This document shows, in pieces, positions 11,210 through 57,729 of a stretch of 64,000 nt of DNA. The stretch's first letter is position 1, and each line of letters starts with the position of its first letter. Location of the stretch: the NCBI RefSeq assembly GCF_900102965.1, contig NZ_FNGM01000005.1, positions 77,407-141,406 on the forward strand. Reading direction: 5' to 3'. Below the pieces are notes generated by a model. The model had not been told where the DNA came from and searched no databases. It worked only from the letters and a program-made list of their open reading frames with translations. This DNA comes from Paenibacillus jilunlii (GTDB taxonomy: Bacteria > Bacillota > Bacilli > Paenibacillales > Paenibacillaceae). Made by a program: the position numbers and the translations under genes.

Positions 11210-12168
11210 TTACGTTTTTTCCCTCCAGTGTCTGTTTCATAGAATACCCAATACTTCGAGGTGTAAGAGATCAGAACCGTTGCAGCAATAATGGCGACCA
11301 GCATAATCCAGGCCAGTGCCGAAGCATAACCCAGCTCATAACGGCTGAATGCCCTTTCATACAAGTACATTGCGTACACATAAGTGGAGTTCATCGGCCC
11401 GCCGTTCGTGATCACAAAGGCTGAAGTGAACATCTGGAAGGCGCCGATAACGGCCATAATCAGGTTAAAGTAGAGAATGGGTGAAAGCATCGGCAGTGTG
11501 ATTCGGAAGAATTGTGTGATTTTGTTGGCCCCATCTACCGATGATGCCTCGTACAGGTCGTTTGGAATCTGCTTCAGACCCGCCAGAAAAATAACCATGG
11601 TGGAACCGAATTGCCAGACTGTCAGCAGAATCAGCGTGCTGAGCGCCGTATCGGGACTTGTAATCCAGCCCTTCCCTTCAAAGCCAAAGACGCCGATCAG
11701 CTTGTTAAAAATCCCGTCTACCCCAAAAATGTTGCGCCAGAGCAGCGATACCCCGATACTCCCGCCGATTAGCGACGGAAAATAAATCGCCGTGCGGTAG
11801 AAGCTTATTCCTTTTACCGCCTTGCTGAGAATTATAGCGACGAAGAGAGCGGCTATAAGCTTCAAGGGTACGGAGGCGAGCACATACGTGAAGGTTACCT
11901 TAGCGGATTGGATGAATTTGGGGTCCGCTGTAAAGATACGCTCATAATTGCGGGTCCCGATCCACTTCATCGGCTGCAGCAAAGTGTAGTCGGTGAACGA
12001 ATAGTACAAGGATAAGAATAACGGATACGCCGTAAGCGCCAGAAATCCGATCAGCCAAGGCGAAATAAACAAATAGCCAGCAAGCGGAGCGTTCCATCTG
12101 CTGCGGAAGTAGGAGCTTTTTTTCGTCTTGGCAGCAGATGGGGCTATAGCGGCTGTGGAACGGTTCAT
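11206..12168 (-). CDS. Carbohydrate ABC importer permease, MalF type
   Basis: Membrane permease, 320 aa, six predicted helices after a basic N-terminal tail of about 30 residues. The EAA loop reads YEASSVDGANKITQFFRITL around residue 215. ATG at 12168 is behind GAGGTGACC. It is coupled to the MalG-type gene by an ATGA overlap. The 0.94 kb between this gene and GH67 is filled with repeats, which probably interrupt an ancestral binding protein-GH67-permease operon; the substrate is then likely an aldouronate or other xylo-oligosaccharide. Confidence 0.93.
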   Translation of the reverse strand: MNRSTAAIAPSAAKTKKSSYFRSRWNAPLAGYLFISPWLIGFLALTAYPLFLSLYYSFTDYTLLQPMKWIGTRNYERIFTADPKFIQSAKVTFTYVLASVPLKLIAALFVAIILSKAVKGISFYRTAIYFPSLIGGSIGVSLLWRNIFGVDGIFNKLIGVFGFEGKGWITSPDTALSTLILLTVWQFGSTMVIFLAGLKQIPNDLYEASSVDGANKITQFFRITLPMLSPILYFNLIMAVIGAFQMFTSAFVITNGGPMNSTYVYAMYLYERAFSRYELGYASALAWIMLVAIIAATVLISYTSKYWVFYETDTGGKKRK

Positions 12169-12482: not shown

Positions 12483-12613
12483 AAGTGGAAAAAGGGACAC
12501 TAATTCAGCTCATTTCGCCATTGGACGAGGAATATAGCCCTTTTAAGTATACTTTTTCCATTTAAATCTTATTATTTTTGAATTTCCGGAAAAATAATTT
12601 CCCTTTTTCCAAC
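12483..12613. repeat. Intergenic repeat A, copy at 12.5 kb
   Basis: It starts AAGTGGAAAAAGGGACACTA and contains inverted partners: a degraded CTTTTTCCATTT about 75 bp on, and CCCTTTTTCCAACT at the end. Related copies lie at 24814-24945, 48053-48235 and 59239-59421, with a fragment at 20972-20995. The layout suggests a foldback, MITE-like or structured intergenic element without coding capacity. Confidence 0.8.
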
Positions 12614-12692
12614 TGGCGCTTGCGAAGAAGCCCGGTAAGCAAGTGCTAGTTGAAATTAGGATATCTAGACCGGCTAATCCCTCCGACTGCGC

Positions 12693-12871
12693 TCCAACAA
12701 CGGCATTTCTGCCGTTGTTTCGGTGCAACCCGGCCGACGACGCTTCAACAACGGCATTTCTGCCGTTGTTTCCGGGCAAACCGACCGTCGGCGCTTCAAC
12801 AACGGCATTTCTGCCGTTGTCTCCGGGCAAACCGGCCGTCGGCGCTTCAACAACGGCATTTCTGCCGTTGT
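12693..12871. repeat. Tandem repeat B, four units of 51 bp
   Basis: Four units at a 51 bp spacing, each with the palindrome AACAACGGCATTTCTGCCGT extended to TGTT (10 bp stem, loop of 4) followed by a variable CCGGGCAAACCGGCC segment. The same unit occurs five times at 48342-48587 and once at 25066. Because 51 is divisible by three, several frames stay open, but these are not genes. Confidence 0.85.
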
Positions 12872-12960
12872 TCGTTACATATTCGTCTAAAGGTATTTAT
12901 TTCATAACTTTATGCCTAATTTATCCACAAGCAGAAATCATAGTTTCCTTCCATATAAAT

Positions 12961-13054
12961 CAAGTGGAAACGGCTACGCCGTCCTTATTAGGACGGTACC
13001 CGTTTCAGCGAGAAATAGAAGGATAATGTATGGCGCGAAGCATATAAATTCTAT
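12961..13054. repeat. Intergenic repeat D, copy 2
   Basis: Second direct copy of the 12281-12372 element, starting CAAGTGGAAACGGCTACGCC, just before the GH67 terminator. Confidence 0.75.
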
Positions 13055-13057
13055 GTT

Positions 13058-13091
13058 AAAAAAGAAGCGGTATTCACCGCTTACCGCTTCT
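13058..13091 (-). terminator. Terminator of GH67
   Basis: On the minus strand GAAGCGGTAA pairs with TACCGCTTC and is followed by TTTTTT, 21 bp after the GH67 stop codon. It should end the binding protein-GH67 transcript. Confidence 0.8.
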
Positions 13092-13111
13092 CGCTTCTGC
13101 ATCACAGTGCA

Positions 13112-15184
13112 TTAATAGATGGTTCTTCCCCATTGATCGGCAATGCCGCTCTTCCGGAAGAAGTACGTATTGATTCTGTCCCGCCACTCTTTGGAATGCT
13201 CGGCTTGTTCTGCGAGGCGGTCCGCTACCTGCCGGTACGCCTGTTCACCTACCTGGTCCTTCACCAGCTCCCAGGCGGCGGCCAGCTGGCTTGCCCGCTC
13301 CGCACCGGCAAAATGTGTATCATAAATGTGCTGAATCACGGTTTTGCCGGAATGGAGCACATGGGTATACGGGACATGGTGGAAAAAGAGCAGCAGCTCA
13401 TCCGGACAGCTCTCAAGCGACTCGTACAGTTCCATGTTAACAGGGGCATATTGGGAGGTATACCCGGTTCCGGTTGCCGTGGTACGGTCCACACCAATCC
13501 CATCACAGTCTGCGAAGTGATAAGTCCCCCACATGGAATATTCATATCCATCCACATTAGGGCCGTAGTGATAGTCAGGATTGACCATAAACCCGACGCC
13601 CAGCGGGGCGGTATACGATTCATAAATCTCCCAGGAGTTCATCAGAATGTCCAGTATCGTCTGAACTAGGAGTTCATGGGTGCCAAAGGTGAGCATAATC
13701 CATTCCAGAGCAATTTTCTCGGCAGACATCTCCGGATTCCAGGCCAGACGGCCGTAGCCGAACAGATTCGCCTGGGCCAGCAGATGGCCCGTCCAATTGG
13801 TGTCATTCCCAATATTGGAGACGGCGGCAAAACCGCTGTAGGCATTGCCGTGAACACTTCCATCCACAATGCGTTTGACCGTAGTTCCTTCACCTTGGAG
13901 ATGTGTATCAAAGTTTAGAATTTCCTTCCACTGGGGAACCAGATAACACACATGGCGTTGCTGTCCGGTATACTCCTGGGCAATCTGAAATTCAATGACT
14001 TGATTGGTCTGCGGCATGGCTCCAAGCAGCGGCGAGACGGGCTCCCTGACCTGAAAATCAATCGGCCCGTTCTTCACCTGCAGAATGACATTGTCCATGA
14101 AACGTCCATCCAGCGGCTGGAAATGATCATAGGCCGCCCGCGCCCGGTCTGTGGTGCGGTCGCGCCAGTCCTGCTTGCAGTTATACACGAAGCAGCGCCA
14201 GATGACGATGCCGCCATGCGGCTGCAGCGCTTCGGCCAGCATATTGGCGCCGTCGGCGTGATCTCTGCCGTAGGTGAACGGTCCCGGCCGGTTCTCCGAA
14301 TCGGCCTTGACCAGAAATCCTCCGAAATCAGGAATTGCAGCATACACTTCCGACGCTGCGGCCCTCCACCATTCCCGGACGTCTGAATCCAGCGGATCTG
14401 CCGATGAGAGGCCGCCGATCTCCATCGTGCTGGCATAATTGATGCTCAGGAACAGCTTGATGGCATAGGCGCGGAAGATAGCTGCGAGCTTCGCCACATC
14501 CGGCAGGAATTCCGTCAACAGCCGGCTCTCCACCCGGTGGACATTCACGTTATTGATCGAGATGGCATTGATCCCGCTGGAGGCCAGCAGGCGGGCATAA
14601 TCCTGGATACGCTGAAGATTGCCTGTTATCCGGTTATCTTCATAAAAAATAGATTTCCCGGCGTATCCCCGCTCCACACTCCCGTCCATATTGTCCCACT
14701 GGTTAATCATGCGCAGCTGATTGACGGGATTCTCTACAATACTTAATTGCCGTACAGAGCCGCCTGTTCCCATGATCCGCAGCAGGTGAAATACTCCATA
14801 TAATATACCTGCGGATGTGACTGCTCCGATGGCAATATTGCCGGTAAGGCTGTCGGTTTGAATCGCATAGCCCTCCGCTTTGACAGCACTGCTTACACCG
14901 GCGCTGAACAGTTCATCTATCCCAGTGCCGGTTCCGAAGATTCCTATTATTATACCGGGAGCACTCTCGGTATCACCTGATATGGACACCTTGGTGCCCG
15001 TGATCCCCTCCATGCCTTGAGCCAACTCGTCCACAGCAGAACGAATAACAGCATCCTCCTGCGCATCAACTACAATATGTTTGTACACCGCATATTGATC
15101 AACATTCTCCCCCGCCGTATTCCGGCGGTACTGCTGCCAGGCCAGATATCCGTCTCCAGGGTGATACAACACAGAATTACTCAT
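13112..15184 (-). CDS. aguA: Intracellular GH67 alpha-glucuronidase
   Basis: Removes (methyl)glucuronic acid from the non-reducing-end xylose of aldouronates, the products made by GH30 and GH10. The protein is 690 aa, as usual for the family, and has no signal peptide. Family landmarks include the acid Glu in [24 protein letters not shown], and the two acidic residues of the base machinery in [12 protein letters not shown] and IAQEYTGQ. The ATG at 15184 has GGGAGGACT upstream; an upstream in-frame ATG at 15229 lacks a ribosome site. It lies 72 bp after the binding-protein stop, separated by a strong hairpin, so GH67 is probably expressed by partial read-through from the transporter gene. Confidence 0.97.
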
Positions 15185-43793: not shown

Positions 43794-44705
43794 TTATTCT
43801 TTAACACTTCCCAGGTTCAATCCTACCACGAAATATTTCTGCAAGAAAGGGTAGACGAACAAGATTGGCACTGCGGTAACGATGGTGATGGCTGCACGGA
43901 TGGAAGCCGGTGTAACCAATGCCTGCGTCTGATTGTGCTGATTGCCTGCCAGCAAGGAAGGATCGTTGTTCGTGCTCATGGTGGACCCGAGCAGCTTCAT
44001 CATTTCATATTGCAGTGTACTCAGCTTGATATCCGAGGATGCGTACAGGAACGTGTCAAACCAGGCGTTCCATGAGCCTACAGCGATGAACAAGGCTACA
44101 GTTGCCAGGACGGGAGTACACAACGGGAAAATGATTTTCCAGAAGATTCTGAAATCCCCCGCCCCGTCGATCTTCGCCGACTCCGTGAGACTCCCTGGAA
44201 GGCCGCGGATATACGTCCGCATGATAATCAGGTTGAACGCGCTGACCAGGCTTGGCAGGATATAGACCCAAAAGCTATGGAGCAAGCCCAGCTCTTTAAT
44301 AAGGAAGTAGTTCGGAATCAGGCCGGCATTGAAATACATGGTCAGGATGAACAGCATGCTGATTTTTTTACGGAGAATGTATTGCGGCTGCGCCAGTGTA
44401 TACGCCAGCATGGTGGTCAGAAAAACGCCGAATACCGTCGAGAGCACCGTACGGGACACGGAGATAAAAGCGGCATGGTAGATCGTCCCTGAAATAAAGA
44501 CGGCTTTATAGTTCTCCAAGGTCCAGGCACGGGGCCAGAAATAAATTCCGCCGGCAAGAGTGTCACTGCCGTCATTTAAAGAAACAGCCAGCGTGTGGAG
44601 GAATGGATATAGCGTGATGGCCACCACAAAGAGCATAAATATCGTGTTGATCGTATGAAACACAACCGGCTCAATGCGGCTTGAACTTTTCGTCACAGCT
44701 TTCAT
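43794..44705 (-). CDS. ytcP: ABC importer permease, YtcP/LplC type
   Basis: 303 aa membrane permease with about six helices; EAA loop TESAKIDGAGDFRIFWKIIF; C-terminus VVGLNLGSVKE as in the group. ATG follows a GGAGGAAGCCCAT ribosome site 14 bp after the LplB-type stop. Forms the SBP-LplB-YtcP importer with the two genes upstream, an arrangement known from Paenibacillus aldouronate clusters. Confidence 0.93.
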   Translation of the reverse strand: MKAVTKSSSRIEPVVFHTINTIFMLFVVAITLYPFLHTLAVSLNDGSDTLAGGIYFWPRAWTLENYKAVFISGTIYHAAFISVSRTVLSTVFGVFLTTMLAYTLAQPQYILRKKISMLFILTMYFNAGLIPNYFLIKELGLLHSFWVYILPSLVSAFNLIIMRTYIRGLPGSLTESAKIDGAGDFRIFWKIIFPLCTPVLATVALFIAVGSWNAWFDTFLYASSDIKLSTLQYEMMKLLGSTMSTNNDPSLLAGNQHNQTQALVTPASIRAAITIVTAVPILFVYPFLQKYFVVGLNLGSVKE

Positions 44706-44719
44706 ATGGGCTTCCTCCT

Positions 44720-45706
44720 CTATACTAACCGCTCTTCGCCGAGGCGTTTTGCGATATAATTTGCGATGAATACAAGAATGACACTGACGATGGTTTTGAA
44801 GATCCCTGCCGCCGTAGCCAGAGAATAATTCCCCATAGAGATCCCATATTTCAGTACAAAGATATCAATGGTTTGCGACCAGTCTACAGTAAGCCCGTTG
44901 CCAAGCAAATATTGAAGCTCGAAGCCGGCATCCAGAATATGTCCGATGTTCATAATCAGCAAAATAACGAATGTGGCTTTAATCCCCGGAAGAGTGACAT
45001 AGCGCATCTTCTGAAAACGCTTGGCACCATCCATGGACGCTGCCTCATACAGAGAAGGATCGATCGAGGTAATGGCCGCCAGATAAATAATGGTGCCCCA
45101 GCCCACCTCTTTCCACACGTTCGAAGCCCCGACAATGCCCCAGAAATATTTCCCTTCACTGAGCCACATAATCGGTTCCTTAATCAAGTGCAGCTTCATC
45201 AAGATTATATTGACAATCCCGTCGTCAACCGACAGCGAAGTGGCAACGATGCCCGCTGCGATAACCCAGGACAAGAAATGCGGCAAATACGATATCGACT
45301 GAACAATACGCTTGAAAAACTTGACTTTGATCTCATTCAGCAGCAAAGCCAGGCCGATTGCCGTAACAGTACCAAGCACAAGGTTAATAAAGCTCATGGC
45401 GACCGTGTTGCGCAGCACCATCATAAAGGTCTCATCCGAAAATAGAAATTTGAACTGCTGCAGGCCTACCCATTCCTGCTTGCCGAAGGATAGCGCCGGA
45501 CGGTAGTTCTGAAAGGCCATCAGCCAGCCCCAAATGGGCGCATAGTTAAAGATAAGCAGATAAATGGCAATCGGCACTGACATGAAAATAAGCTGCTTCT
45601 GCATTTTTAGCGTTTTCCAGCTAAGGCTCACACCGATTTCCGGATCGACTCTGCGTTTTCGGGTCTTCTGTGTTTTGACCTGTTTGTCCAGTACGGTATC
45701 AGACAT
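44720..45706 (-). CDS. lplB: ABC importer permease, LplB type
   Basis: 328 aa from ATG 45706, which has CAGGAGGGAAA upstream (the longer frame to 45742 lies in the intercistronic hairpin region). A basic N-terminal tail of about 40 residues is followed by six helices and EAA loop YEAASMDGAKRFQKMRYVTL. Partner of YtcP (43794) and of the binding protein (45805). Confidence 0.93.
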   Translation of the reverse strand: MSDTVLDKQVKTQKTRKRRVDPEIGVSLSWKTLKMQKQLIFMSVPIAIYLLIFNYAPIWGWLMAFQNYRPALSFGKQEWVGLQQFKFLFSDETFMMVLRNTVAMSFINLVLGTVTAIGLALLLNEIKVKFFKRIVQSISYLPHFLSWVIAAGIVATSLSVDDGIVNIILMKLHLIKEPIMWLSEGKYFWGIVGASNVWKEVGWGTIIYLAAITSIDPSLYEAASMDGAKRFQKMRYVTLPGIKATFVILLIMNIGHILDAGFELQYLLGNGLTVDWSQTIDIFVLKYGISMGNYSLATAAGIFKTIVSVILVFIANYIAKRLGEERLV

Positions 45707-45757
45707 GTAGTGTTTCCCTCCTGTAAGATCATCTCTCCACACTATCCGGATTAATGA

Positions 45758-45784
45758 AGAGCGGGAAATCGTATTTCCCGCTCT
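45758..45784 (-). terminator. Perfect intercistronic stem-loop after the binding-protein gene
   Basis: AGAGCGGGAAAT / ATTTCCCGCTCT, a perfect 12 bp stem with a 3-base loop, between the binding-protein stop (45805) and the permease start. On the minus strand only TCATTAATCC follows, so it probably stabilises the binding-protein mRNA and lets part of the transcripts through. Confidence 0.75.
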
Positions 45785-45804
45785 GTTCCCGGCTTTGAAT
45801 TACA

Positions 45805-47472
45805 CTACTTCACGCTCCAGTTTTTGATGCGCTGCTGGATTCCTTCATTAATCCGGTCTTCATATGCCTTGATATCCAGCTTATGGATCTGGTTGACATA
45901 ATCCGTCCAGACACTTTCAAATTCATCCGGACTGGCCATAATGGCCTTCGGCAAATATTTGACTTGAAGGTCATTAAGCTTGGACTGTGCCAGCTGGGCA
46001 GGCGAACCATCCTTAAGAACGATGGAGTAGGCAGGGAAGTAGATATTATTTTCTTTGGGTTCCTTGAAGAATTCAGACCATGATTTCTTGTTATACGCCT
46101 TCAGGATCTTCTGATCGTAAGGCTTCAGACTGTCGAAGAATTCCTGCGGCTGAGTTCCGGGATCTGCTGCATTCCCGTCGCTGTAGGTACCTTGAATCTT
46201 AGGCATATATCCATGCATGGTTGTGATTTTGTTAGCCACCTGCCAGCTGGTTTTATCTGCGTTCGCCCGTTGTTCCGGCGTCCGGTAGAATGTGCCGTCT
46301 TCCTTCACTTCATAATCTTCGCCTTTGATTCCCCATTGGATCGTTTTCTGCCATTCTTCTGTGATCATCTGATCCCAGAATTTGATAATCCGGACAGGGT
46401 CCTTGGCGTTGATGGAGATCCCGAAGCCGCGGTTGGTGCCGACCGCTCCGCGGTCGCGATACCATTCCTCAGCGCCCGGATAGAGCAGAGGGAAGCCGAT
46501 ATACGTATTTTCAATTTTGCCCTGGGAGATCAAAGAGGTTTCCCCATCCTGGAAGTTCCAGTGCTGGTCAAACATGCCGATGACCTTGCCGCTGGCGATT
46601 TTGGCCAAGTACTGGTCGTAGTTCTGCACGAAGGCTTCTTTATCCATCAAACCTTGAGCGTTAATTTCATTAAGCTTCTTGTAATAGGTCTTGGAAATGT
46701 CCTTATCGGCAAAAATCTGCGCTTTGTTGTTGTCTACAATAACGGCCCCGTCATTCGGATGTCCCGACAAGTGTTCAGGAGCGTTCTGAAGCGGGAATAC
46801 CCGCCAGTCGAAGTTGAGCGATTCAAATCCAATCATATCCGGGTGCTTTTCTTTATATTTGGCAATGATATCGAAATACTCATCCAGGGTCTTCGGTGAC
46901 GGATAGCCCATTTCCTCAAGTACGGCCTTTTGAAGCCAGAAGCCTGGTCCCTGGTAAGTCGGTTCAGTAATTTTACCTTGATATACACCATAGCTTGGCA
47001 GCACGTAGATGTGGCCGTCGCTCTCATCTTTAATCTGATTCCAGACCGCGGCATAATGCTTCTTCAGGTTGGGAGCATACTTCTCGATCAGATCCTCAAG
47101 CGGAATGTAAGCCTTGGCATTGATTAATTTGTCATCGCCCGACATAATGTCCGGGTAGTCGCCTCCGGCAATCATTACCCCCAGCTTCTGCTGCAGGTCG
47201 CCCACCAGAAACTCCATATTGAAGCTGACGCCGGTTTTGTCTTTCATCAGTTTGAGAATCTTGTTGTCGGCCGTAGGCTGCTGCCCGGGACCGCTCATAA
47301 ATACCGAGAATGTTACCGGAGCATTGTCGTCTCCGTTCGCCGCTGGACTAGCGGTTCCCCCATTAGCAGTGTTGCTGTTCGTGTTGTTCGAGCTGCAGCC
47401 TGCCAGTGCCAGTGTAAGTGCGAATGCACCGGCTGCCAGTGCCCGGGCCGAACGTTTTGCCGTTTTATGCAT
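45805..47472 (-). CDS. lplA: Extracellular oligosaccharide-binding lipoprotein, LplA type
   Basis: 555 aa. Signal peptide with lipobox LAGC (Cys about residue 26), Ser/Asn/Thr-rich tether, then the large LplA-type fold (APVTFSVFMSGPGQQPT; MIAGGDYPDIMSGD). ATG follows AAAGGGGAGGC. First gene of the importer; the following RR-HK-RR genes and the GH10 operon point to xylo-oligosaccharides or aldouronates as ligand. It shares the MIAxGDYPDI segment with the partial binding protein at position 1. Confidence 0.94.
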   Translation of the reverse strand: MHKTAKRSARALAAGAFALTLALAGCSSNNTNSNTANGGTASPAANGDDNAPVTFSVFMSGPGQQPTADNKILKLMKDKTGVSFNMEFLVGDLQQKLGVMIAGGDYPDIMSGDDKLINAKAYIPLEDLIEKYAPNLKKHYAAVWNQIKDESDGHIYVLPSYGVYQGKITEPTYQGPGFWLQKAVLEEMGYPSPKTLDEYFDIIAKYKEKHPDMIGFESLNFDWRVFPLQNAPEHLSGHPNDGAVIVDNNKAQIFADKDISKTYYKKLNEINAQGLMDKEAFVQNYDQYLAKIASGKVIGMFDQHWNFQDGETSLISQGKIENTYIGFPLLYPGAEEWYRDRGAVGTNRGFGISINAKDPVRIIKFWDQMITEEWQKTIQWGIKGEDYEVKEDGTFYRTPEQRANADKTSWQVANKITTMHGYMPKIQGTYSDGNAADPGTQPQEFFDSLKPYDQKILKAYNKKSWSEFFKEPKENNIYFPAYSIVLKDGSPAQLAQSKLNDLQVKYLPKAIMASPDEFESVWTDYVNQIHKLDIKAYEDRINEGIQQRIKNWSVK

Positions 47473-47562: not shown

Positions 47563-47781
47563 TTCATAAAATATAGTTCTTCCCCCCCAAAAATACGATA
47601 CAATGAAAACGTTTGCTGTTCATGTACTCCGTAGACTTGTTTCTATACAAGGCTTGTCTACACCAGACTACAGAAATGGATTGCCCGGGGCGAAGCCCCT
47701 GTCCCGGCAGAATAGGGCTGGCGTTAATACGCCAACCCCAGCCAGCACTATTCTATTATACAGACAACCCGGCTGCTCCGT

Positions 47782-48000
47782 CCTTCGCTGGACAGGGGCG
47801 CCGGGTTGGATATGGACAAGATGGCCGCGCCTTCGCTGGACAGGGCAGGCGGGTTGGATATACAAGATGGCTGAGCCTTCGCTGGACAGGGCGCCGGGTT
47901 GGATATACAAGACGGCGACGCCTTCGCTGGGCAGGGGCACCGGGTTGGATACTCAAGACGGCTGCGCCATCCTTCATTGGACGGTGCAACCGTCTTGGAT
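47782..48000. repeat. Tandem repeat C, about five units of 45-50 bp
   Basis: Units begin at about 47782, 47830, 47876, 47921 and 47970 with CCTTCGCTGGACAGGGCGCC and continue GGGTTGGATATACAAGA. The last unit contains the hairpin 47955-47996 and matches the single element at 12387-12425. Several frames stay open, but they do not look like genes. Confidence 0.8.
47955..47996. terminator. Terminator-like hairpin at the end of repeat C
   Basis: AAGACGGCTGCGCC pairs with GGTGCAACCGTCTT with two mismatches. Same design as 12384-12425. Confidence 0.5.
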
Positions 48001-48052
48001 TTCAGTCTGGCGTCACCTGGAGCACAACTCCCCATAATCCTAAGGCAACTCC

Positions 48053-48235
48053 AAGTGGAAAAAGTATAACTAATTTGCTCGCGCACCCTATCTCCACAGA
48101 GCTAGGTGGAAAAAGGTACACTAATTTAGCTCATTTCGATCCTACTGAGGGAATATGGCCCAATTAAGTTTCCTTTTTCCACTTAAATCTCATAATTCTT
48201 GATTTTGGGGAGAAATAAGCTCCCTTTTTCCAACT
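48053..48235. repeat. Repeat A, copy with a doubled first arm
   Basis: Two arms (48053 and 48103) of the AAGTGGAAAAAGG type are separated by about 50 bp, then CCTTTTTCCACTTAAATCTC as the inverted partner and CCCTTTTTCCAACT as the end. The copy at 59239-59421 has the same doubled form, including a shared TCTCCACAG spacer. Confidence 0.8.
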
Positions 48236-48341
48236 AACGCTTGCGAAGAAGCCGGTTTGCAGGCGCTCGTTGGAATAAGGAGCTATAGACCGGCAGATCC
48301 CCCAGCTTTATATCTTCCAAAATACAAGCCAATGGGCAAGC

Positions 48342-48587
48342 GGCGCTTCAACAACGGCATTTCTACCGTTGTTTCCGGGCAAAACCGCCAGCGGCGCTTC
48401 AACAACGGCATTTCTACCGTTGTTTCCGGGCAAAACCGCCGGCGGCGCTTCAACAACGGCATTTCTGCCTTTGTTTCCGGGCAAAACCGCCGACGGCGCT
48501 TTTAACAACGGCATTTCTGCCTTTGTTTCCGGGCAAGACCGCCGGTGGCGCTTAAACAACGGCACTTTTGCCGTTGTTTACGGGCCA
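48342..48587. repeat. Tandem repeat B, five units of 51 bp
   Basis: Units start near 48347, 48398, 48449, 48500 and 48551, each with AACAACGGCATTTCTACCGT or a variant, then CCGGGCAAAACCGCCGGCGG. The palindromic centre is degraded in some units (CTACCG, CTGCCT). Related to 12693-12871. Confidence 0.85.
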
Positions 48588-48761
48588 ATCGGCCTTCGCC
48601 ACTCTCGCCCGCATCGCGTGGGTAGAACATCGGTTGTTGACTATGCGATTTCATCATGTGCGTGTGAGTGCCTCTGCGGCACGATCAGCTCCCTTCACGA
48701 TCGATCCGGGGCTGATGCAGACAGGAAATCCGTTATTTGACAGGGGTTTGTCCATTCAGCC

Positions 48762-49060: not shown

Positions 49061-51310
49061 TTACCGGATGAACGTATAAGAGCTTCCGGCTTCCCCGGTG
49101 AACACAACGGGATCAAGACCGGGACCTTCCAGCCGGCAAGGACCGGATACCGTGCAAGTCACAACTGCTTCCATAACCAGCCCCTCCGCCCAGGTAAAAT
49201 CGAGGGTATACCCGCCTCTCGCCCGCAGGCCCTTGACGCTGCCCTCACTCCAGCTTGTCGGCAGCGCAGGCAGCAGCTTGAGTCCCCCGGCGTGGCTCTG
49301 GAGCAGCATCTCGGCAATCCCCGCCGTTCCTCCAAAATTCCCGTCAATCTGGAACGGAGGATGGTTGTCGAACAGGTTGGGCAGCGTAGAATGATCCAGC
49401 AGAGCGCGGACATTCGCATAGGCCTTGCCCCCATCCATCAATCTGGCCCAAAAGTTAATGATCCAGGCCCGGCTCCAGCCGGTGTGGCCGCCGCCGCCGG
49501 CCAGCCTGCGTTCCAGCGTCGTCCGGGCGGCTTTGGCCAGTTCCGGCGTATGCTCCACGGTGAAGGCATCGCCGGGGTACAGCGCAAACAGATGGGAGAT
49601 GTGGCGGTGCCCCGGCTCCGCCTCTTCATAATCCTCCATCCATTCCTGAATCTGCCCGTATTTTCCGATTTGCGCTTTGGGCAGCCGGGCCAGTGCGGCG
49701 GCGAGTTCTTCGCGGAACGCCTCGTCCCTGCCGATGATCTCCGCACTGCGGATGCAGGCCCCAAACAGCGCTTCAATGATCTGAAAATCCATCGAAGCCC
49801 CGGCGCAGAGCACCCCCGACTCGCCGCCCGGCAGCTTATAGGTGTTCTCAGGGGAGACGGACGGGCAGGTAATCAGCCGGCCTTCGGCGTCTTCCACCAG
49901 ATAATCAAGCAGGAATCTGGCCGCCTCCTTCATCGTCTCATACGCCTGCTCCAGAAAATAACGGTCCTGGCTGAACCGGTAATGCTCCCATAGATGCAGG
50001 CACAGCCAGGCAGCGCCCAGCGGCCAGAAGGACGCCGGCAGGTAGGTATCCTGCGGAGCCGTATCTGCCCAGATATCCGTATTGTGATGCGCCGTAAATC
50101 CTCCGCAGCCATACATGACCCTGGCCGTGACCCGCCCCGGCTCCCGCATCCGTTCGATCAAATCGAACAGCGGCTCATGGCATTCGGCCAGATTGCAGAT
50201 TTCGGCAGGCCAGTAGTTCATTTGCGCATTGATATTGATCGTGAATTTGCTGTCCCAGGCCGGGCTGAAGCTGTCATTCCAAATGCCCTGCAGATTCGCG
50301 GGCAAGGAGCCCGGGCGGCTGGAAGAGATAAGCAAATAGCGGCCGTACTGGAAATAGGTCGCGATCAGGCCATTGTCCTCCTCTCCCTTCTGAAACCGCT
50401 TCAGCCGCTCGTCCGTCGGCAGCTCGTTCAGATGCGGGTTCTCCGGCAGCGTAAGCGTAACCCGCCCATATAGTCCGCGGTAATCTGCGGTATGCCGGGC
50501 CAGCAGCTCTTCGTAGGGAACCCGGCTCAGCTCTTCCAGCTGTCTTTTGGCGTAAAGCCCGGGATCGGGATGGCGGAATGTCGTTCCGGCAGCAAGCAGC
50601 AGCGTAACTGAGCTTGCCCCATCCACAAGCAAATACTCGCCGACGGTCCGGCAGAGGCCGTCTTCTGCAACTGCCTTCAAGACAGCGGCAAAGGAGCTGC
50701 CCCCATGGCCGCCGCAATCACCGCTCATAGCCAGTCCGCTGTTCTGCCATTTCTCCGTCTTCTCCAGGTATCTCCAGTTGTGGCGGTTAAACCGCGCTTT
50801 AAGAGAAATTCCGTTCTTATGGTCGGAGGAAAACCGGAGGACCATAACCTGATCCGGGCAGCTCGCAAACAGCTCGCGGGTATACCGGACCCCGCCAGTC
50901 ACATAGCTGATCCGGGAAACGCCGCGCTCCAAATCAAGCTCTCTCCTGTAGTCCACGGCAGGCTGCCCGTGGCCGCCAAACGATAGCAGCAGTTCGCCCA
51001 GCGGCAAATAATGCCGCTGCGCTTCGGGCAGTCCCGCCATCGACATGGCAGCCAGCTCCTCAGCCTCCCCCAGCTTTCCCTCCAGAATCAGCCTGCGGAT
51101 CTCGGGCAAATGCGGCAGCGCGTCTTCGTTGTTGCGGTCACGGGGACCGCCGTACCATACGGAATCCTCATTGAGCTGCAGCTTCTCCTCGGCTATGCCG
51201 CCAAAAATCATAGCACCGAGCCGCCCGTTTCCAATGGGCAGAGCCTCGTTCCATTCCCGCGCCGGTTGGCTGTACCACAACTGCTGCTTATGTTCCATGC
51301 TTGTCATCAT
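49061..51310 (-). CDS. Intracellular GH95 glycosidase (alpha-L-fucosidase or alpha-L-galactosidase)
   Basis: 749 aa, no signal peptide, full family length. N-terminal beta domain ([20 protein letters not shown]), helical linker and (alpha/alpha)6 barrel. Family landmarks: YWPAEICNL, the acid Glu in [10 protein letters not shown] (about residue 557), [26 protein letters not shown] and [14 protein letters not shown]95 contains alpha-1,2-L-fucosidases and also alpha-L-galactosidases. Because the next three genes encode L-galactose rather than L-fucose type oxidation enzymes, I favour removal of L-galactose from xylan side chains. It is 38 bp downstream of the zinc dehydrogenase gene, ATG behind GAAGGAGCGG, so it belongs to the same operon. 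Confidence 0.93.
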
Positions 51311-51348
51311 TGATCCGCTCCTTCAATCCGCATAATACGGCCTCGTGA

Positions 51349-52368
51349 TTAGTCCAACTCTACCAGCGCCTTAATCACCTTCGATTCAGGCTTGAGCCAG
51401 TTCTCGAACTGTTCGATCATGTCCTCGAACCTGCTACGATGGGTAATGTAATTGCTGACATCGATGTAACCGTCCCTGATGGCTTGAAGCACACGCTCAA
51501 AGTCCTCCCGGGTGGCATTTCTGCTGCCCTGCACCGTCATTTCGCGCGCATGAAAATCGGGATCATTGAAGGTAATCATACCTTTCACCAAGCCAACATA
51601 GGTCAAAGTTCCTCCATGGCCGACAAGCCCAAAGGCACTTTCCATCGAGGAGATGCTGCCGGTGGAATCGATCACATAGGGCAGGAAGCTGCCTTCTGTA
51701 AGCTTGGACAACTGTTCCTTCGGCTCCCGCAGTGCGCTCACCGTATGCTCCGCCTGCGCCCATTTCCTGCAAAAGTCCAGACGTTCATCGTTTACATCCA
51801 TGGCGGTCACCTTGGCACCGGCATATCTGGCCATCGCCATGACGCCCAGCCCGATCGGGCCTGCACCGATAACCAGGACTTGATCGCCGGCGCCAAGACC
51901 CGACCGCCGGACGGCGTGCGCGCCGATCGCCAGCGGCTCCAGCATCGCCGCCTGATCCAGCGTCAGCCCATCTGTTTTTAATAGATTGTGTACAGGCAAG
52001 GACACCCGCTCCCGCATTCCGCCGTCCAAATGAACGCCGAATACCCTCATCTGCTGACAGCAGTTGGTTTTGCCGCTCAGGCAGGCCCGGCACTCGCCGC
52101 AATGAAGATAGGGAATGACACTGACCTGGTCACCGACCCGCAGCCCTTCCGGGTTGTCGCCGATGTGCTCAATCGTTCCGGACAGCTCATGCCCAAGCAC
52201 GCGCGGGTAGGTGAAATAAGGCTGGTTGCCCCGGAACGCATGGAGATCGGTACCGCAAATGCCGATCCGGCGAATCCTGACAATCGCTTCGCCGGCCTGT
52301 GGCTGCGGCTCCGGCAGATCCTCCCTGTACACGAATTTCCCGATTTCCCCGCAGATAATTCCTTTCAT
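51349..52368 (-). CDS. Zinc-dependent sugar-acid dehydrogenase, LgoD (L-galactonate 5-dehydrogenase) like
   Basis: 339 aa medium-chain dehydrogenase, the length of E. coli LgoD (YjjN), which oxidises L-galactonate to D-tagaturonate. Catalytic-zinc residues are in GICGTDLHAF and LGHELSG, the structural zinc in CGECRACLSGKTNCC, and the NAD Rossmann motif is GAGPIGLG. Stretches shared from memory with LgoD include GNQP(Y/F)F(T/S)YPRVLGHE, VIPY, KTNCC-like, GVHLDGG and GSRNAT. The ATG at 52368 has GGGGAGCG upstream and overlaps nothing; the frame open to 52506 overlaps the reductase gene. It lies 2 bp after the reductase stop. A generic alcohol or L-threonine-type dehydrogenase is the alternative. 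Confidence 0.85.
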   Translation of the reverse strand: MKGIICGEIGKFVYREDLPEPQPQAGEAIVRIRRIGICGTDLHAFRGNQPYFTYPRVLGHELSGTIEHIGDNPEGLRVGDQVSVIPYLHCGECRACLSGKTNCCQQMRVFGVHLDGGMRERVSLPVHNLLKTDGLTLDQAAMLEPLAIGAHAVRRSGLGAGDQVLVIGAGPIGLGVMAMARYAGAKVTAMDVNDERLDFCRKWAQAEHTVSALREPKEQLSKLTEGSFLPYVIDSTGSISSMESAFGLVGHGGTLTYVGLVKGMITFNDPDFHAREMTVQGSRNATREDFERVLQAIRDGYIDVSNYITHRSRFEDMIEQFENWLKPESKVIKALVELD

Positions 52369-52370
52369 TA

Positions 52371-53330
52371 TTATATTCGCTCCCCGTTCTGATTTCGCTC
52401 TTCGTTCCACTCCGCCCGGCCGCTCGGCCATGTTGCACCGTCGACCGGCTTCAGAATGTCCAGCACTTCCTCCAGCAATTGTTCGTTCATCGGCTCTTCT
52501 GTCCACAATATATTGTTGCGGATATTTGCCGGTGTCGCCGTGCTTACCAATGTTGTCGGGATCTGTTCATTCGCTGTGGAGAACTGGACCGCCAGCTTCG
52601 CAATATCCTCTCCCTTGTCCCGGCAATATTCGGCGGCGCGCTTGCACGCAGCCTGGATGTCCCCGCCCGCCGGATGCCAGTCAGGCACCTTGCGGCTGCT
52701 CAGCAGGCCCATGGAAATGGGCGACGCATTCATCAGTCCGGTTCCCTGCCGCTCCAGCAGCGGAAGGAGGCGAAGCAGCGTCGTATCGTTCAGGGAATAA
52801 TGGCAATACGACAGGACAACATCCAGAGTCGTACGGGATAATACCGTTTCGAAGATGTTCAAGGGCAGGCCGGTCACCCCGTAGAAACGGATCTTCCCGG
52901 ATTGCTTCAATTCCTTAAGAGCCGGAATCCCTTCTTCCATCACCTGCCCGATCCGGCCGAATTCGATGTCGTGCAGCAGCAAAATATCCAGATAGTCTGT
53001 TCCCAGCCGGGTCATGCTTTCTTCCGCGCTGCGGATGACCCTTTCCTTGGAGAAATCAAATTCATCCTGGCCGTAACGTCCCGCCTTCGTGCTTAGAATA
53101 TACCGGTCCCGCGGAACCGTCCGCAGTGCCTCTCCCAGCACCATCTCTGCCTTCGTCAACCCGTAATACGGGGATACATCAATCAGATTAATTCCCATGT
53201 CGATGGCGGTATGGACCGTACGGATTCCCTCTTCCTTCGGAACATCCCGGAATACGCTTCCCAGCGAAGACGCCCCGTAACTAAGCACAGAGACGTCCAG
53301 GCCCGTATTTCCCAGCTTTCTGTATTTCAT
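52371..53330 (-). CDS. Aldo/keto reductase, plant L-galactose dehydrogenase-like
   Basis: 319 aa, the same length as plant L-galactose dehydrogenase, and similar to it from end to end: ILSYCHYS near residue 185, NASPISMGLLS, PDWHPA, and the C-terminal PVDGATWPSG. The aldo/keto reductase tetrad is visible as Asp and Tyr in DVSPYYG, Lys in STKAGRYG and His in LLHDIEFG. It would oxidise L-galactose (or L-fucose, as bacterial relatives do) at C1 to the lactone with NAD(P). ATG follows AATGGAGGTTC, 18 bp after the lactonase stop, within the operon. Confidence 0.88.
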   Translation of the reverse strand: MKYRKLGNTGLDVSVLSYGASSLGSVFRDVPKEEGIRTVHTAIDMGINLIDVSPYYGLTKAEMVLGEALRTVPRDRYILSTKAGRYGQDEFDFSKERVIRSAEESMTRLGTDYLDILLLHDIEFGRIGQVMEEGIPALKELKQSGKIRFYGVTGLPLNIFETVLSRTTLDVVLSYCHYSLNDTTLLRLLPLLERQGTGLMNASPISMGLLSSRKVPDWHPAGGDIQAACKRAAEYCRDKGEDIAKLAVQFSTANEQIPTTLVSTATPANIRNNILWTEEPMNEQLLEEVLDILKPVDGATWPSGRAEWNEERNQNGERI

Positions 53331-53348
53331 CGCGTTGAACCTCCATTG

Positions 53349-54188
53349 TTATGATAATTTTAACTTGTAGAACCTCGCCGCATTTGCTCCGAAGATGGGC
53401 TCCATCTCTTGCGGCGACAGCCGCTCCTGCAGTACTTGCCGCAATGCCTCAACAACCTCATCATAGGTTGCAGCCATGAGGCACACGGGCCAATCGCTGC
53501 CGAACATCAGCCTCTCGGGTCCAAACAGGTCCAGCACTCCATGCACGTAAGCAGTGAAATCCTCTTGCTTCCAGCCCTGGGGATCAGCCTCCGTCACCAT
53601 CCCGGACAACTTGCAGTAAATGCCAGGGTGCTGCGCAATTTCCGCCATATGGCTTCGCCACGGCTCCAAGCTGCCCGAAGCAATCGGCGGCTTCGCCAGA
53701 TGGTCGATAACCCCCCTGAGTCCGGGAACCCGATCCAGCAATTGAATCAGCTGCGGAAGCTGATCCGCCAGGACAAGCAGGTCAACGGGAAGATCCTTTT
53801 CCGCAAAATATGAAAGCGCTTCTACATAAGGGGTTGATAAAAGAATGCCGGGATCGTCCATCTCCTGTATCATCACGCGGATTCCCATGAATTTCGGATG
53901 CCCGCAGAACCGCCGGTATTGCGCTTTGTATGACGGGTTCTCAAGGTCCAGCCAACCGACCACCCCGGCTATGAAATCGGCTTGACCGCTTAATCCAAGA
54001 ATATATTCGGTTTCCTCCACCGTGGGTGCAGCCTGTACCACAATCGTGCGGCTGATCCCGTGTTTCTGCAAATGCGGTTCAAGGTCGGAGGGCAGATAAT
54101 CCCGGAACAGCACCGGAATTTCAGGTGTAATCCAGCCGTAGTCGTTTCGGTCAATCCTCCAAAAATGCTGATGAGCGTCAATACGCAT
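53349..54188 (-). CDS. COG3618 sugar lactonase (L-fucono/L-galactono-lactonase like)
   Basis: Amidohydrolase-superfamily lactonase, 279 aa from the second of two adjacent ATGs, which has the best spacing to GGAGGTGGG; the frame runs to 54251 but lacks a ribosome site there. The metal motif is DAHQHFW at residues 4-10, with VIDHLAKPP, KLSGMVTEAD and FGSDWPVC further on. COG3618 members hydrolyse L-fucono-, L-rhamnono- and L-galactono-lactones. First gene of the lactonase-reductase-dehydrogenase-GH95 operon and divergent from AraC gene 54320. Confidence 0.9.
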   Translation of the reverse strand: MRIDAHQHFWRIDRNDYGWITPEIPVLFRDYLPSDLEPHLQKHGISRTIVVQAAPTVEETEYILGLSGQADFIAGVVGWLDLENPSYKAQYRRFCGHPKFMGIRVMIQEMDDPGILLSTPYVEALSYFAEKDLPVDLLVLADQLPQLIQLLDRVPGLRGVIDHLAKPPIASGSLEPWRSHMAEIAQHPGIYCKLSGMVTEADPQGWKQEDFTAYVHGVLDLFGPERLMFGSDWPVCLMAATYDEVVEALRQVLQERLSPQEMEPIFGANAARFYKLKLS

Positions 54189-54319
54189 CATCCCACCTCC
54201 ATTCCATCTTATTTTAAACATCCGATAAAAGAATAAAAATAGCTTAAACAAACAAATTTATACCTTATTTTGATATGATGACTGTAAGAAACTATAGGTT
54301 TAACTAAGGAGGCAGGGCC

Positions 54320-55189
54320 ATGAAACCGATCCGCAAGGTTTTTGACAACGAGCTGCCGTTTTCTCTGCTTTTGGATTACAAGGAAACGAAAAGCCCGCAG
54401 CGCGAGCTTCCAGACCATCAGCATCACTGGTATGAGTTCGTATACGTCTACCGGGGAAAAGGGACTTTTTTTATCGATCAGACGTTTTACGAGATGCGCC
54501 AGGGCGATGTCATCGTCGTTCCCGGAAACACGGTGCACCGGGGATTTCCCGACAAAGAGGAGCCGGTGACGTCCTCCGCCGTTTTTTTCAGCCCGGATCT
54601 TATTCATAACCACGCATTCAGTGAGGCATACGCCTATCTGAAGCTGTTTGACGCAGCCAAGAAGAATAAGCAGTACAAATATTCCCTGCCTCCCGAACAC
54701 GCCCAAATCGTAGAAAGCGATATCGGGGCCATCCACGTTGAATGGGAGCAGAGACGCCCGGACGGCGGGCAGGCCATGGCGCTGCTGCTCCATCTCGCGC
54801 TGCTTCATTTGAACCGGTACTGCTTGCCGCAGGCGGCCGAGCCGGGCGCACCGAACGCCTTGGTCCCGGATTGGTTCCGGGAAGCGCTCGCCTATATCAA
54901 CGACCATCTGGACCGGCCGCTGGAGCTGGGGGCGCTGGCAAAACGGGCGGCCGTATCCCCGGCCCATTTCAGCCGCGTCTTCAAGCAGCGGTTAGGTATG
55001 AACGCGACCGATTATATTTCGACCAAACGGATTTTTGCGGCCAAGGACGGCTTGCTCCAGTCCAACGACAAAATTGAGCACATTGCCATGGCCTGCGGCT
55101 TTGAGAGCATGCCCCATTTTTACCGCACGTTTAAAAAATATACGGACATGACTCCCGCTGCTTACCGGAAGGGCAACCGGCCACACTGA
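54320..55189 (+). CDS. AraC-family regulator of the L-galactose-type operon
   Basis: 289 aa. N-terminal cupin (LPDHQHHWYEFVYVYRG; MRQGDVIVVPGNTVHRG) that probably senses a released sugar; C-terminal double helix-turn-helix (LGALAKRAAVSPAHFSRVFK; IEHIAMACGFESMPHFYRTF). ATG follows AAGGAGGCAGG. It shares a 131 bp promoter region with the lactonase gene and is the obvious regulator of that operon. Confidence 0.92.
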   Translation: MKPIRKVFDNELPFSLLLDYKETKSPQRELPDHQHHWYEFVYVYRGKGTFFIDQTFYEMRQGDVIVVPGNTVHRGFPDKEEPVTSSAVFFSPDLIHNHAFSEAYAYLKLFDAAKKNKQYKYSLPPEHAQIVESDIGAIHVEWEQRRPDGGQAMALLLHLALLHLNRYCLPQAAEPGAPNALVPDWFREALAYINDHLDRPLELGALAKRAAVSPAHFSRVFKQRLGMNATDYISTKRIFAAKDGLLQSNDKIEHIAMACGFESMPHFYRTFKKYTDMTPAAYRKGNRPH

Positions 55190-55302: not shown

Positions 55303-57729
55303 CTAGCTCTTCAAGTCTTTTTCCCTGACAGCTACAGGTTCGCCTTGATAAGACACAATGCACCTTCCGGCAATTCCGGTGATCTCTACTGCAAATTGTC
55401 TTTCCGCCGGCATACCGGTGTAGCTCCCGCTGCGCTTCCCGATCGTCAGGGTACGGTCCGCTTCGCTCCACTTCATCTCAATCGTGGTGTACGAACCGTT
55501 CTCGTAATTATAGTTATCCCCTTCATCTTCATACAGTGTGTATGAAGCATCCTTGCCGGAATATACCTTCAAGACAATCATGGCTTCCGGCTGTTCATCC
55601 GCATATTGAACATCCGGACCAAGCGGAACAATCGATCCGGCACGGACAAAGAGAGGAAGCGTCTCCAAATCAGCTTTGGCTTCAATCGTCAAGCCGCCCT
55701 GAGTCCGTTCATCGCTCCAGTAATCGTACCATTCACCGGCCGGAAGGTAGACACTCCGCAGCTTGCCGATCCCCTGAAGCTCCCGCGAGCCGGGGCCATA
55801 ATACATCGCAGTTGTGACAGGCGCAACCAGGAAGGCCGGTCCGAACATAAACTGATCGTCAATATTATGGACGCGCACATCTTCCCGGTAATCAAAAGCC
55901 AGCGCACGAAGCATCGTATATTTGCGATGTGCGACGGCCCCTGCCATAGAATAGATATAAGGCATCAGCTTGTAGCGGAGCTTCAGATACTTCACCAGCG
56001 TATCGTACATCAGCTCGCCCTCTTCGCCAAACCGCCACAGCTCTCTTGGCGTATCTGTTCCATGGGAACGGAACATCGGCAAAAAGGCCCCTAGCTGGAA
56101 CCAGCGGACATACAGCTCACGATATCCGAGATCGGCGACACCTTCGTCGTAATCCCCGTTCCAGAACCATTGCTCCTTGAGATTGCGTACGAAGAAGGCA
56201 CCGATATCCAGTGTCCAGTAAGGGGAACCTGTGACGCAAAAATTAAGGCCGTCTGCAATCTGCTTCCGCAGCGTCCCCCAATTGGCTGCTATATCTCCCG
56301 ACCATGTAATCGTGCCGTAGCGGTGCTGCCCGGCAAAAGCGGAACGCGTCAGATTCACAACCCGTTTGACTGTGTCCGCCGCTCGCTGGCCTTCATAGAT
56401 GCCCTTGGAATGCAGCAGCGAATAGGCATTGATAAGACCCGGATCAAGATAACGCTTGGATTCTGCCGTGTTAATCAGCATGCGCTGCTCCGGTTCCGGC
56501 TTCACCGCCCCATTCCAGTCGGCCTCGAACGGCTCGGTGCAGTCGCACCACCAGGCGTCAATTCCATGGGAGAACAGTCCGGTATTGGCCTGCTTCCAGT
56601 ACAGCTCACGCGCTTCCTCCCGGAAGGCATCATATGTGGCCTGATTGCCGAGCAGGAAGCCGCGCCCGCTCATTTCTTGGTGATTATCACCGCCGGCTGC
56701 CATAATCGGCCATATAGATACCATTAGCTTTGCATTCATGGCATGCAGGCTGTGCATCATTTGCGGAGGGTCCGGGAAACGTCCAGGATCAAACGTCTTT
56801 TGTCCCCACAAATTGCCCGGCCACGACTGCCAATCCAGAACGATGCAATCGAGGGGAAGCGAACGGTCACGGTACTCCTGCACGGTGGCAATCAGTTCCT
56901 CCTGGGAAATGTAACGTTCCTTGGATTGCACATAACCGAAAGACCATTTCGGAAGCATCGGCGCGTCCCCCGTCAGGTGCCGGATTCCGGCTATAATCTG
57001 ATCGAACTCCGGGCCGTAAATCACATAATAATCCATTTCTTCATCCACATCCGTCCAGAGATAGGAACCGAATGCATCATCATGAAAAGTCATGTACGAA
57101 CAGGAGTCTATCAAAATCCCGTAGCCGCGCGTAGATACAAGCACCGGGACAACCGCTTTCATATTTTGCTGGTACAAATATTGATGCCGGCCGCGAAGAT
57201 TCATCATCCCCTCTTCATGTGAGCCAAGTCCATAGAGAGCCTCATCCTCCTGCCATTCGAATTCCAGCTTCGTATGATAGGCTTGCCTGTCAAGCCTGCG
57301 GTTGATCCCTTCCGCTCTTGCGCGCAGGCCATCCGCACCCTGACCGGTTTCAACCTTATCCGCCGCAGCATCGAAAACCGTACGGTATACCTCTGTCCGC
57401 TCCAGCGTTTTGCCGCCCCTGGACGGTTCCTTTGTCAACAGCTTGCCATTGGCATCCCAATAACTGAAGGCGCAGGTCAACTTGTCCACCTGAATCGTAA
57501 GGAGCGCAGTCGAAATTTCCAGATGGCCCGGGTGGTCCGCAACCGTCCATTGAATGCCCCCCGCCTCCGGATGGCTCACCACCACAAGGCTCTCTTTCCT
57601 GCTGAGCTCCGAATCCAGGGTATAACGAATTCTGGCAATTCCCGGCGTGCTAAAAGCAATATGCATGATCCCTTCTGTAGTCTCCAGCCTGACGCCACCC
57701 GAACCGGAGTGCACATCCTTCAGTTTCAC
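55303..57729 (-). CDS. Intracellular GH31 alpha-xylosidase
   Basis: 808 aa, GTG start at 57729 behind GGGTAGGGAT. GH31 enzyme of the YicI/alpha-xylosidase branch: nucleophile Asp in WWCDCTEPF (about residue 397), acid/base Asp in TWSGDIAANW (about 475), with GYVQSKERY, VLDWQSW and MFRSHGTDTPREL. No signal peptide. It releases alpha-D-xylose, either from xyloglucan-type fragments or from alpha-xylosyl side chains of complex xylan; the absence of xyloglucan endo-enzymes here favours the latter. It stands alone with AraC gene 57853 divergent; the 55190-55302 spacer holds no gene. Confidence 0.94.
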   Translation of the reverse strand: MKLKDVHSGSGGVRLETTEGIMHIAFSTPGIARIRYTLDSELSRKESLVVVSHPEAGGIQWTVADHPGHLEISTALLTIQVDKLTCAFSYWDANGKLLTKEPSRGGKTLERTEVYRTVFDAAADKVETGQGADGLRARAEGINRRLDRQAYHTKLEFEWQEDEALYGLGSHEEGMMNLRGRHQYLYQQNMKAVVPVLVSTRGYGILIDSCSYMTFHDDAFGSYLWTDVDEEMDYYVIYGPEFDQIIAGIRHLTGDAPMLPKWSFGYVQSKERYISQEELIATVQEYRDRSLPLDCIVLDWQSWPGNLWGQKTFDPGRFPDPPQMMHSLHAMNAKLMVSIWPIMAAGGDNHQEMSGRGFLLGNQATYDAFREEARELYWKQANTGLFSHGIDAWWCDCTEPFEADWNGAVKPEPEQRMLINTAESKRYLDPGLINAYSLLHSKGIYEGQRAADTVKRVVNLTRSAFAGQHRYGTITWSGDIAANWGTLRKQIADGLNFCVTGSPYWTLDIGAFFVRNLKEQWFWNGDYDEGVADLGYRELYVRWFQLGAFLPMFRSHGTDTPRELWRFGEEGELMYDTLVKYLKLRYKLMPYIYSMAGAVAHRKYTMLRALAFDYREDVRVHNIDDQFMFGPAFLVAPVTTAMYYGPGSRELQGIGKLRSVYLPAGEWYDYWSDERTQGGLTIEAKADLETLPLFVRAGSIVPLGPDVQYADEQPEAMIVLKVYSGKDASYTLYEDEGDNYNYENGSYTTIEMKWSEADRTLTIGKRSGSYTGMPAERQFAVEITGIAGRCIVSYQGEPVAVREKDLKS

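Follow-up and report, generated by a model that had tools for sequence, protein, structure and literature searches.

Which sugar is served by the four-gene operon, flanked by a divergent AraC-type regulator gene, that lies among xylan-degradation genes in a 64,000-nucleotide stretch of the Paenibacillus jilunlii genome (contig NZ_FNGM01000005.1, positions 77,407–141,406; hereafter, the window)? In the order of minus-strand transcription, the operon encodes a COG3618-type lactonase, an aldo/keto reductase, a zinc dehydrogenase and a GH95 glycoside hydrolase, and a sequence-only reading had proposed that these proteins free L-galactose from xylan and oxidize it to D-tagaturonate. That interpretation stands and is strengthened by the computed gene identities and family placements, the conserved cassette, the uxaB and uxaA genes inside relatives' cassettes and the downstream genes in the genome; the enzyme activities, the uptake, the natural glycan substrate and the inducing compound are proposed on this basis. 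We assign a probability of roughly 0.86 to an AraC-controlled operon that releases L-galactose from plant glycans and oxidizes it to D-tagaturonate. Briefly, oligosaccharides with terminal α-L-galactose, most likely L-galactose-capped side chains of glucuronoarabinoxylan (GAX), would be imported, and a cytoplasmic GH95 enzyme would cut off the L-galactose; the aldo/keto reductase would convert it to L-galactono-lactone, the COG3618 enzyme would turn this lactone into L-galactonate, and the LgoD-like zinc dehydrogenase would oxidize L-galactonate to D-tagaturonate. The latter would enter the galacturonate pathway encoded elsewhere, passing through UxaB to altronate, through UxaA to 2-keto-3-deoxygluconate, and then to 2-keto-3-deoxy-6-phosphogluconate (KDPG) aldolase.

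The strongest evidence comes from comparative loci. The reductase was surveyed (E ≤ 1e-60) across 392 genomes of the window's order and a phylum sample of 398, and was present in 195 of the former and 6 of the latter, all six in the window's family. Sixty loci were fetched, comprising the 25 that scored highest after the window's own (L042–L066, reductases 78–92% identical; the close orthologous loci) and 35 lower matches picked by hand (L067–L101, of which L092 is a second copy in genome G050); counts over these 60 are not those of a random sample. Lactonase, reductase and zinc enzyme occurred together in 54 of the 60 loci (25/25 close orthologous, 29/35 other). A co-oriented GH95 no more than 2 kb away was the last gene of the operon in every close orthologous locus; 4/35 of the others also had one at this distance and orientation, and 7/35 carried a GH95 of at least 38% identity anywhere in the fetched stretch; a divergent AraC homologue accompanied the cassette in 19/25 and 25/35 loci, respectively. 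Because the four genes stay together in all 25 close orthologous loci and the intergenic block upstream of the lactonase is also conserved, their association reflects more than chance.

What relatives add to the cassette points to its product. In 12 of the 35 other loci, a UxaB homologue (36–40% identical to E. coli UxaB) sits between lactonase and reductase, and in 10 of these 12 a UxaA homologue (48–53%) lies alongside. The one UxaB scanned, from L079, scored 572 bits against a tagaturonate reductase cut-off of 359; UxaA of the same locus reached no NCBIfam cut-off (nearest: galactarate dehydratase, 296 of 731 bits). The presence of tagaturonate reductase and altronate dehydratase genes in relatives' cassettes makes D-tagaturonate the likely product and, by implication, L-galactonate and L-galactose the probable substrates. 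Locus L093 has a lactonase–uxaB–uxaA–reductase–zinc enzyme set next to a GH95 that shares 79% identity with the window's. Genome G050 holds two cassettes (L046 and L092), one with GH95 in a xylan setting and one with uxaB-uxaA. The sequence-only reading had suggested looking for the two downstream genes in the genome itself, where they were found as contiguous uxaB-uxaA-uxaC (49%, 57% and 51% identical to their E. coli counterparts) together with a KDPG-aldolase-like gene (36%); both downstream steps thus appear to be available to the operon.

Similar gene sets also occur on plasmids. The reductase matched 21 plasmid records, of which only that of Paenibacillus cellulositrophicus reached 60% identity (66.7%); its AraC, amidohydrolase, reductase and zinc dehydrogenase genes follow the same order as in the window. 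The marine Catenovulum adriaticum, a member of another phylum, carries all three enzyme genes on a plasmid (L259), at 52% identity for the zinc enzyme, 44% for the lactonase and 55% for the reductase. Close by are a UxaA homologue (49%) and a mannitol-dehydrogenase-family gene whose product is nearer to UxuB (40%) than to UxaB (28%). In this alga-derived organism, the three genes lie beside arylsulfatases, GH2 and altronate dehydratase, and red-algal galactans are a possible source of L-galactose.

For the window's zinc dehydrogenase, a position outside the LgoD clade had been named in advance as a refuting outcome; in a 35-row tree, the 21 rows of the window's order (window included) all grouped with E. 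coli LgoD and a Pontibacter enzyme (98/96), with the Phocaeicola vulgatus-type zinc dehydrogenase outside this group. One row, own_L007, was probably translated from the wrong strand and was disregarded in these comparisons and in the N-terminal scan below. Branches to the E. coli rows are long, and the identity contrast therefore weighs as much as the tree support: the protein is 43% identical to LgoD, compared to 31% for RspB, 32% for the presumed P. vulgatus BVU_0222, 21–28% for E. coli Tdh, IdnD, Ahr, GatD, YdjJ and YdjL, and 31% for the next-best match within its own genome. NCBIfam names were set aside for this enzyme, none being over cut-off and E. coli LgoD itself scoring 206 bits against 376 for PRK10083. 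We therefore regard the zinc dehydrogenase as an LgoD-group member and putative L-galactonate 5-dehydrogenase. In Pontibacter ummariensis (L176:8736–12379), whose genome is without the reductase at E ≤ 1e-40, GH95 directly follows an LgoD-group zinc dehydrogenase 50% identical to that of the window.

The reductase, which had been likened to plant L-galactose dehydrogenase, belongs with such enzymes by sequence placement, being of a type common to Bacteroidota and plants. In the Protein Data Bank (PDB), every one of its top five matches carries the name L-galactose dehydrogenase, with E values from 6.5e-108 to 1.9e-90 before a drop to 2.4e-32; identity is 56% to 9w6y and 51% to 7smi, with 47% for the presumed BVU_0219 and 28% for E. 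coli YdjG. Its tetrad Asp51-Tyr56-Lys82-His120 is intact, as is general in such reductases, among them YdjG. Its own genome gave 18 paralogous matches, the closest of them 40% identical over query residues 1–212. Between these two steps, the L-galactose-to-D-tagaturonate route calls for a lactonase, a part for which the operon offers its COG3618-type protein as a candidate.

Several observations weigh against this reading. In none of the 25 close orthologous loci do uxaB or uxaA lie inside the operon, and for 28 of the 35 non-orthologous loci the fetched stretch contains no GH95 at or above 38% identity. The lactonase or zinc enzyme is absent nearby in 6 of the 35 (one of these, L068, at a contig end), and two of the 60 loci (L072, L095) have no uxaBA but a galactonate-dehydratase-type gene that exceeds the NCBIfam cut-off. 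The nearest curated name for the lactonase is that of a fuconolactonase, and its identity to the presumed BVU_0220 is no more than 24%. Finally, the operon GH95 is 43% identical to the α-L-galactosidase 4ufc and 46% to the fucosidase XacAfc95, values that do not decide its specificity, and the operon GH95s form a separate 11-row group, with the fucosidase XacAfc95 joining the 4ufc group at 100/99.

The lactonase name raises the alternative of an oxidative L-fucose operon, in which GH95 would free L-fucose, the reductase would act as L-fucose dehydrogenase, the lactonase would open L-fuconolactone and the zinc enzyme would act later. The model in question, NF052480 (L-fucono-1,5-lactonase), is matched at 255 bits, below its cut-off of 400 (nearest structure 4dlf, 6.2e-53); L-fuconate and L-galactonate differ at C6 only, so this match is compatible with either sugar. 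A FucU-type mutarotase adjoins the cassette in L070 (7748–8167) and L095, and many GH95 enzymes are described as fucosidases (PMC7176698). The window's genome, against this, holds a complete L-fucose cluster elsewhere, with FucI (62%), FucK-like, FucA-like and FucU (47%) proteins, and fucI had no match in any of the 60 fetched loci. Fuconate dehydratase FucD, which we take to be a member of the enolase-superfamily family MR_MLE_C (PF13378), had been noted as absent from the operon in the sequence-only reading, and the absence extends genome-wide for this type: no protein of the 7.0-Mb genome exceeded the Pfam cut-off (one match, 21.6 of 29.4 bits), compared to 13 of 14 control genomes with a match over it. 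The usual enolase-type fuconate dehydratase thus seems to be missing from the genome, other dehydratase types having lain outside the search. With uxaB and uxaA inside relatives' cassettes and the zinc dehydrogenase in the LgoD group, we hold an L-fucose pathway to be very unlikely. The cassettes of L070, L072 and L095 may feed a different branch; the galactonate-dehydratase-type gene of L072 lies at 6841–7923, and the L095 dehydratase and mutarotase genes lie at 12486–13616 and 10855–11274.

Other sugars of similar stereochemistry could also be considered, for example D-arabinose, L-gulose or L-glucose, the last being a substrate of the dual Luteolibacter pathway (PMC12632266). The Luteolibacter dehydrogenase LguA is described as preferring L-galactose (kcat/Km 2.74 x 10^2 versus 7.11; PMC12632266), D-arabinose products would not enter the UxaB/UxaA steps, and the xylan context speaks against such a substrate; we judge this alternative to be highly improbable.

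The GH95 activity is the weakest link of the L-galactose reading, its specificity being proposed from context. The operon enzyme, one of three GH95 proteins encoded in the genome, contains three GH95 Pfam domains. Because it falls outside the clade of characterized α-L-galactosidases, we treat it as an enzyme that may work like them rather than as a member of that clade; the tree does not decide, and was dropped as proof of galactosidase activity. The active-site Thr (Thr370/His419 marker) has been proposed as a GH95 specificity determinant (PMC4491172) and is present here, as it is in 32 of 33 GH95 rows, XacAfc95 among them. XacAfc95 is described as fucose-specific with Thr, its T395H mutant kept this preference, and Thr was rejected as the determinant (PMC8245568); we likewise rejected it as a marker. 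Given that neither phylogeny nor the −1-subsite Thr is decisive, the cassette might oxidize L-galactose while GH95 is an α-L-fucosidase or attacks a different glycan, such as xyloglucan, pectin or mucilage, its product not being the cassette's main substrate, as the many non-orthologous cassettes without a nearby GH95 would permit. This is at odds with the invariant position of GH95 at the end of the orthologous operons, with a second GH95 subclade (L076, L080, L099, near BH0842) that is also linked to such cassettes, with the separate fucose operon, and with surroundings that are those of xylan rather than xyloglucan, even though the best matches of the neighbouring GH31 are xyloglucan-type or general α-xylosidases. 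From the 25/25 linkage, the second linked subclade, the separate fucose operon and the GAX-suited neighbours, we infer an α-L-galactosidase and consider a different GH95 activity unlikely.

GH95 neighbourhoods of Bacteroidota were also scanned with the reference set (80 loci, E ≤ 1e-12), and a match other than GH95 or AraC was found in only 5 of the 80. In Rufibacter hautae (L173:3733–12391), GH95 (54% to 4ufc) follows UxaB, UxaC, a sugar-kinase-like open reading frame (ORF), Eda and ExuT homologues without the reductase, another GH95 tied to tagaturonate metabolism. In Bacteroides xylanisolvens XB1A (L126, L214; 5.98-Mb genome), an orthologue of the α-L-galactosidase BACOVA_03438 (98%) lies ~41 kb from an L-galactose dehydrogenase operon.

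The xylan setting seen in the sequence-only reading is borne out by the operon's neighbours, which include GH10, several GH43, GH67, GH31, Melibiase_2, a GH30-like enzyme, an esterase and sugar-binding proteins. In corn-fibre GAX, side chain 2 is described as ending in α-L-Galp on β-D-Xylp and side chain 3 in α-D-Xylp (PMC7176698), termini to which the pairing of GH95 with GH31 is suited. By a simple hydropathy scan of N-termini, a strong N-terminal hydrophobic stretch was seen in both scanned binding proteins and in the GH30-like enzyme and was not seen in GH95, GH31, GH67, GH10 or the GH43s, which suggests that oligosaccharides are imported and then de-capped in the cytoplasm. The binding protein of the adjacent importer has a lipoprotein-like N-terminus and is matched only weakly. 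Between this binding protein and GH95 (47603–48740), the only ORFs have translations made of short, near-repeated words, and the stretch probably consists of non-coding repeats.

All five genes of the proposed arrangement lie where they had been placed, with their families confirmed by Pfam (Table 1). The AraC, reductase and GH95 frames stand as listed, but the starts of the other two had been set too far upstream. The lactonase ORF, listed from TTG 54251, has ATG codons at 54191/54188 preceded by GGAGG, to which we moved its start; for the zinc dehydrogenase, the listed ORF opens at GTG 52506, inside the reductase gene, but alignments to several homologues start at its Met47, so that the start is placed at ~52368, directly after the reductase stop. 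The AraC-type protein is probably the activator of the operon, and the conserved intergenic block is probably its operator/promoter region. Frames are split in two relatives, affecting GH95, lactonase and AraC in L052 (G372) and the reductase and zinc enzyme in Phocaeicola sartorii (L215), through decay or sequencing errors.

Table 1 Operon features and selected neighbours, in window positions
Feature	Position	Strand	Basis
AraC-type regulator, divergent	54320..55189	+	HTH_18 2.1e-24, AraC_binding 1.4e-13 (Pfam)
Conserved intergenic block, AraC/lactonase	54219..54280	.	Alignment of window + 14 chosen loci
COG3618-type lactonase, proposed L-galactono-lactonase	53349..54191	-	Amidohydro_2 1.8e-52
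Aldo/keto reductase, 319 aa, proposed L-galactose dehydrogenase	52371..53330	-	Pfam 3.3e-48
Zinc dehydrogenase, LgoD-like, proposed L-galactonate 5-dehydrogenase	51349..52368	-	ADH_N 6.1e-27, ADH_zinc_N 1.8e-25
GH95, proposed cytoplasmic α-L-galactosidase	49061..51310	-	Glyco_hydro_95_cat 4.6e-187
GH31, probable α-xylosidase	55303..57729	-	4/4 PDB matches at E ≤ 1e-60 are α-xylosidases
ABC sugar importer: binding protein and two permeases	43794..47472	-	ORFs; beside operon in most of 25 orthologous loci

Taken more broadly, it is reasonably probable that the Paenibacillales are a major L-galactose-consuming lineage, with about half of the sampled genomes carrying a lactonase/L-galactose dehydrogenase/LgoD cassette assembled unlike that of Bacteroides, and that one lineage added a cytoplasmic GH95, a separately evolved α-L-galactosidase, to yield a complete glycan-to-tagaturonate operon that de-caps imported GAX fragments. 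Part of the recalcitrance of corn-fibre xylan comes from its L-galactose caps. Few α-L-galactosidases have been described; the operon offers candidates for a further GH95 α-L-galactosidase group and a genomic marker for L-galactose use. It also suggests a likely function for a reductase present in half of the order's surveyed genomes and annotated only as 'aldo/keto reductase' in the P. cellulositrophicus record, the one named Paenibacillus record examined.

The pathway itself is already known from gut bacteria. Hobbs et al. (2014) reportedly described an L-galactose pathway to D-tagaturonate in P. vulgatus, encoded by BVU_0219-0222. In PMC12632266, BVU_0219 is cited as the L-galactose dehydrogenase and BVU_0222 as the L-galactonate dehydrogenase. 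The operon that we presume to correspond to these numbers encodes AraC, reductase, amidohydrolase, a FucP-like permease and zinc dehydrogenase, and thus shares with the window an L-galactose dehydrogenase of the aldo/keto reductase type, an amidohydrolase-type lactonase, a zinc dehydrogenase, an AraC protein and the proposed product D-tagaturonate. Its proteins are distant (reductase 47%, zinc dehydrogenase 32%, lactonase 24% identical), the permease contrasts with the ABC importer found here, and no GH95 was detected in its 19.5 kb fetched. Similarly, the Luteolibacter lgu cluster, likened here by description rather than sequence, combines an L-galactose/L-glucose dehydrogenase and an L-galactonate dehydrogenase with tagaturonate reductase and altronate dehydratase, with no lactonase named in the text and no GH95 in the cluster legend (PMC12632266).

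Other systems share single parts. E. coli LgoD (yjjN) resembles the window's zinc dehydrogenase in identity and tree position, but its system starts from external L-galactonate, taken up by the symporter LgoT, without an adjoining L-galactose dehydrogenase or GH95. Predicted Halomonas loci likewise unite LgoD with UxaA and UxaB, but with L-galactonate uptake by a TRAP transporter, L-fuconate genes mixed in and no glycan-releasing enzyme named in the description (PMC5507952). The GH95 α-L-galactosidases BACOVA_03438 (4ufc; PMC4491172) and Herbinix LL1355 (PMC7176698) share family, xylan setting and active-site Thr with the operon enzyme. The Herbinix GH95 enzymes, compared by description rather than sequence, are without secretion signals (PMC7176698), and the window's enzyme shows no strong N-terminal hydrophobic stretch; BACOVA_03438 is periplasmic and falls in another subclade. 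As the sequence-only reading had supposed, our literature search, which left most subscription papers outside, found no account of this four-step gene set in a Gram-positive bacterium, whether in a xylan locus or elsewhere. The operon described here is set apart by its Gram-positive background, its own GH95, its LgoD-type zinc enzyme and a lactonase distant from the presumed P. vulgatus counterpart.

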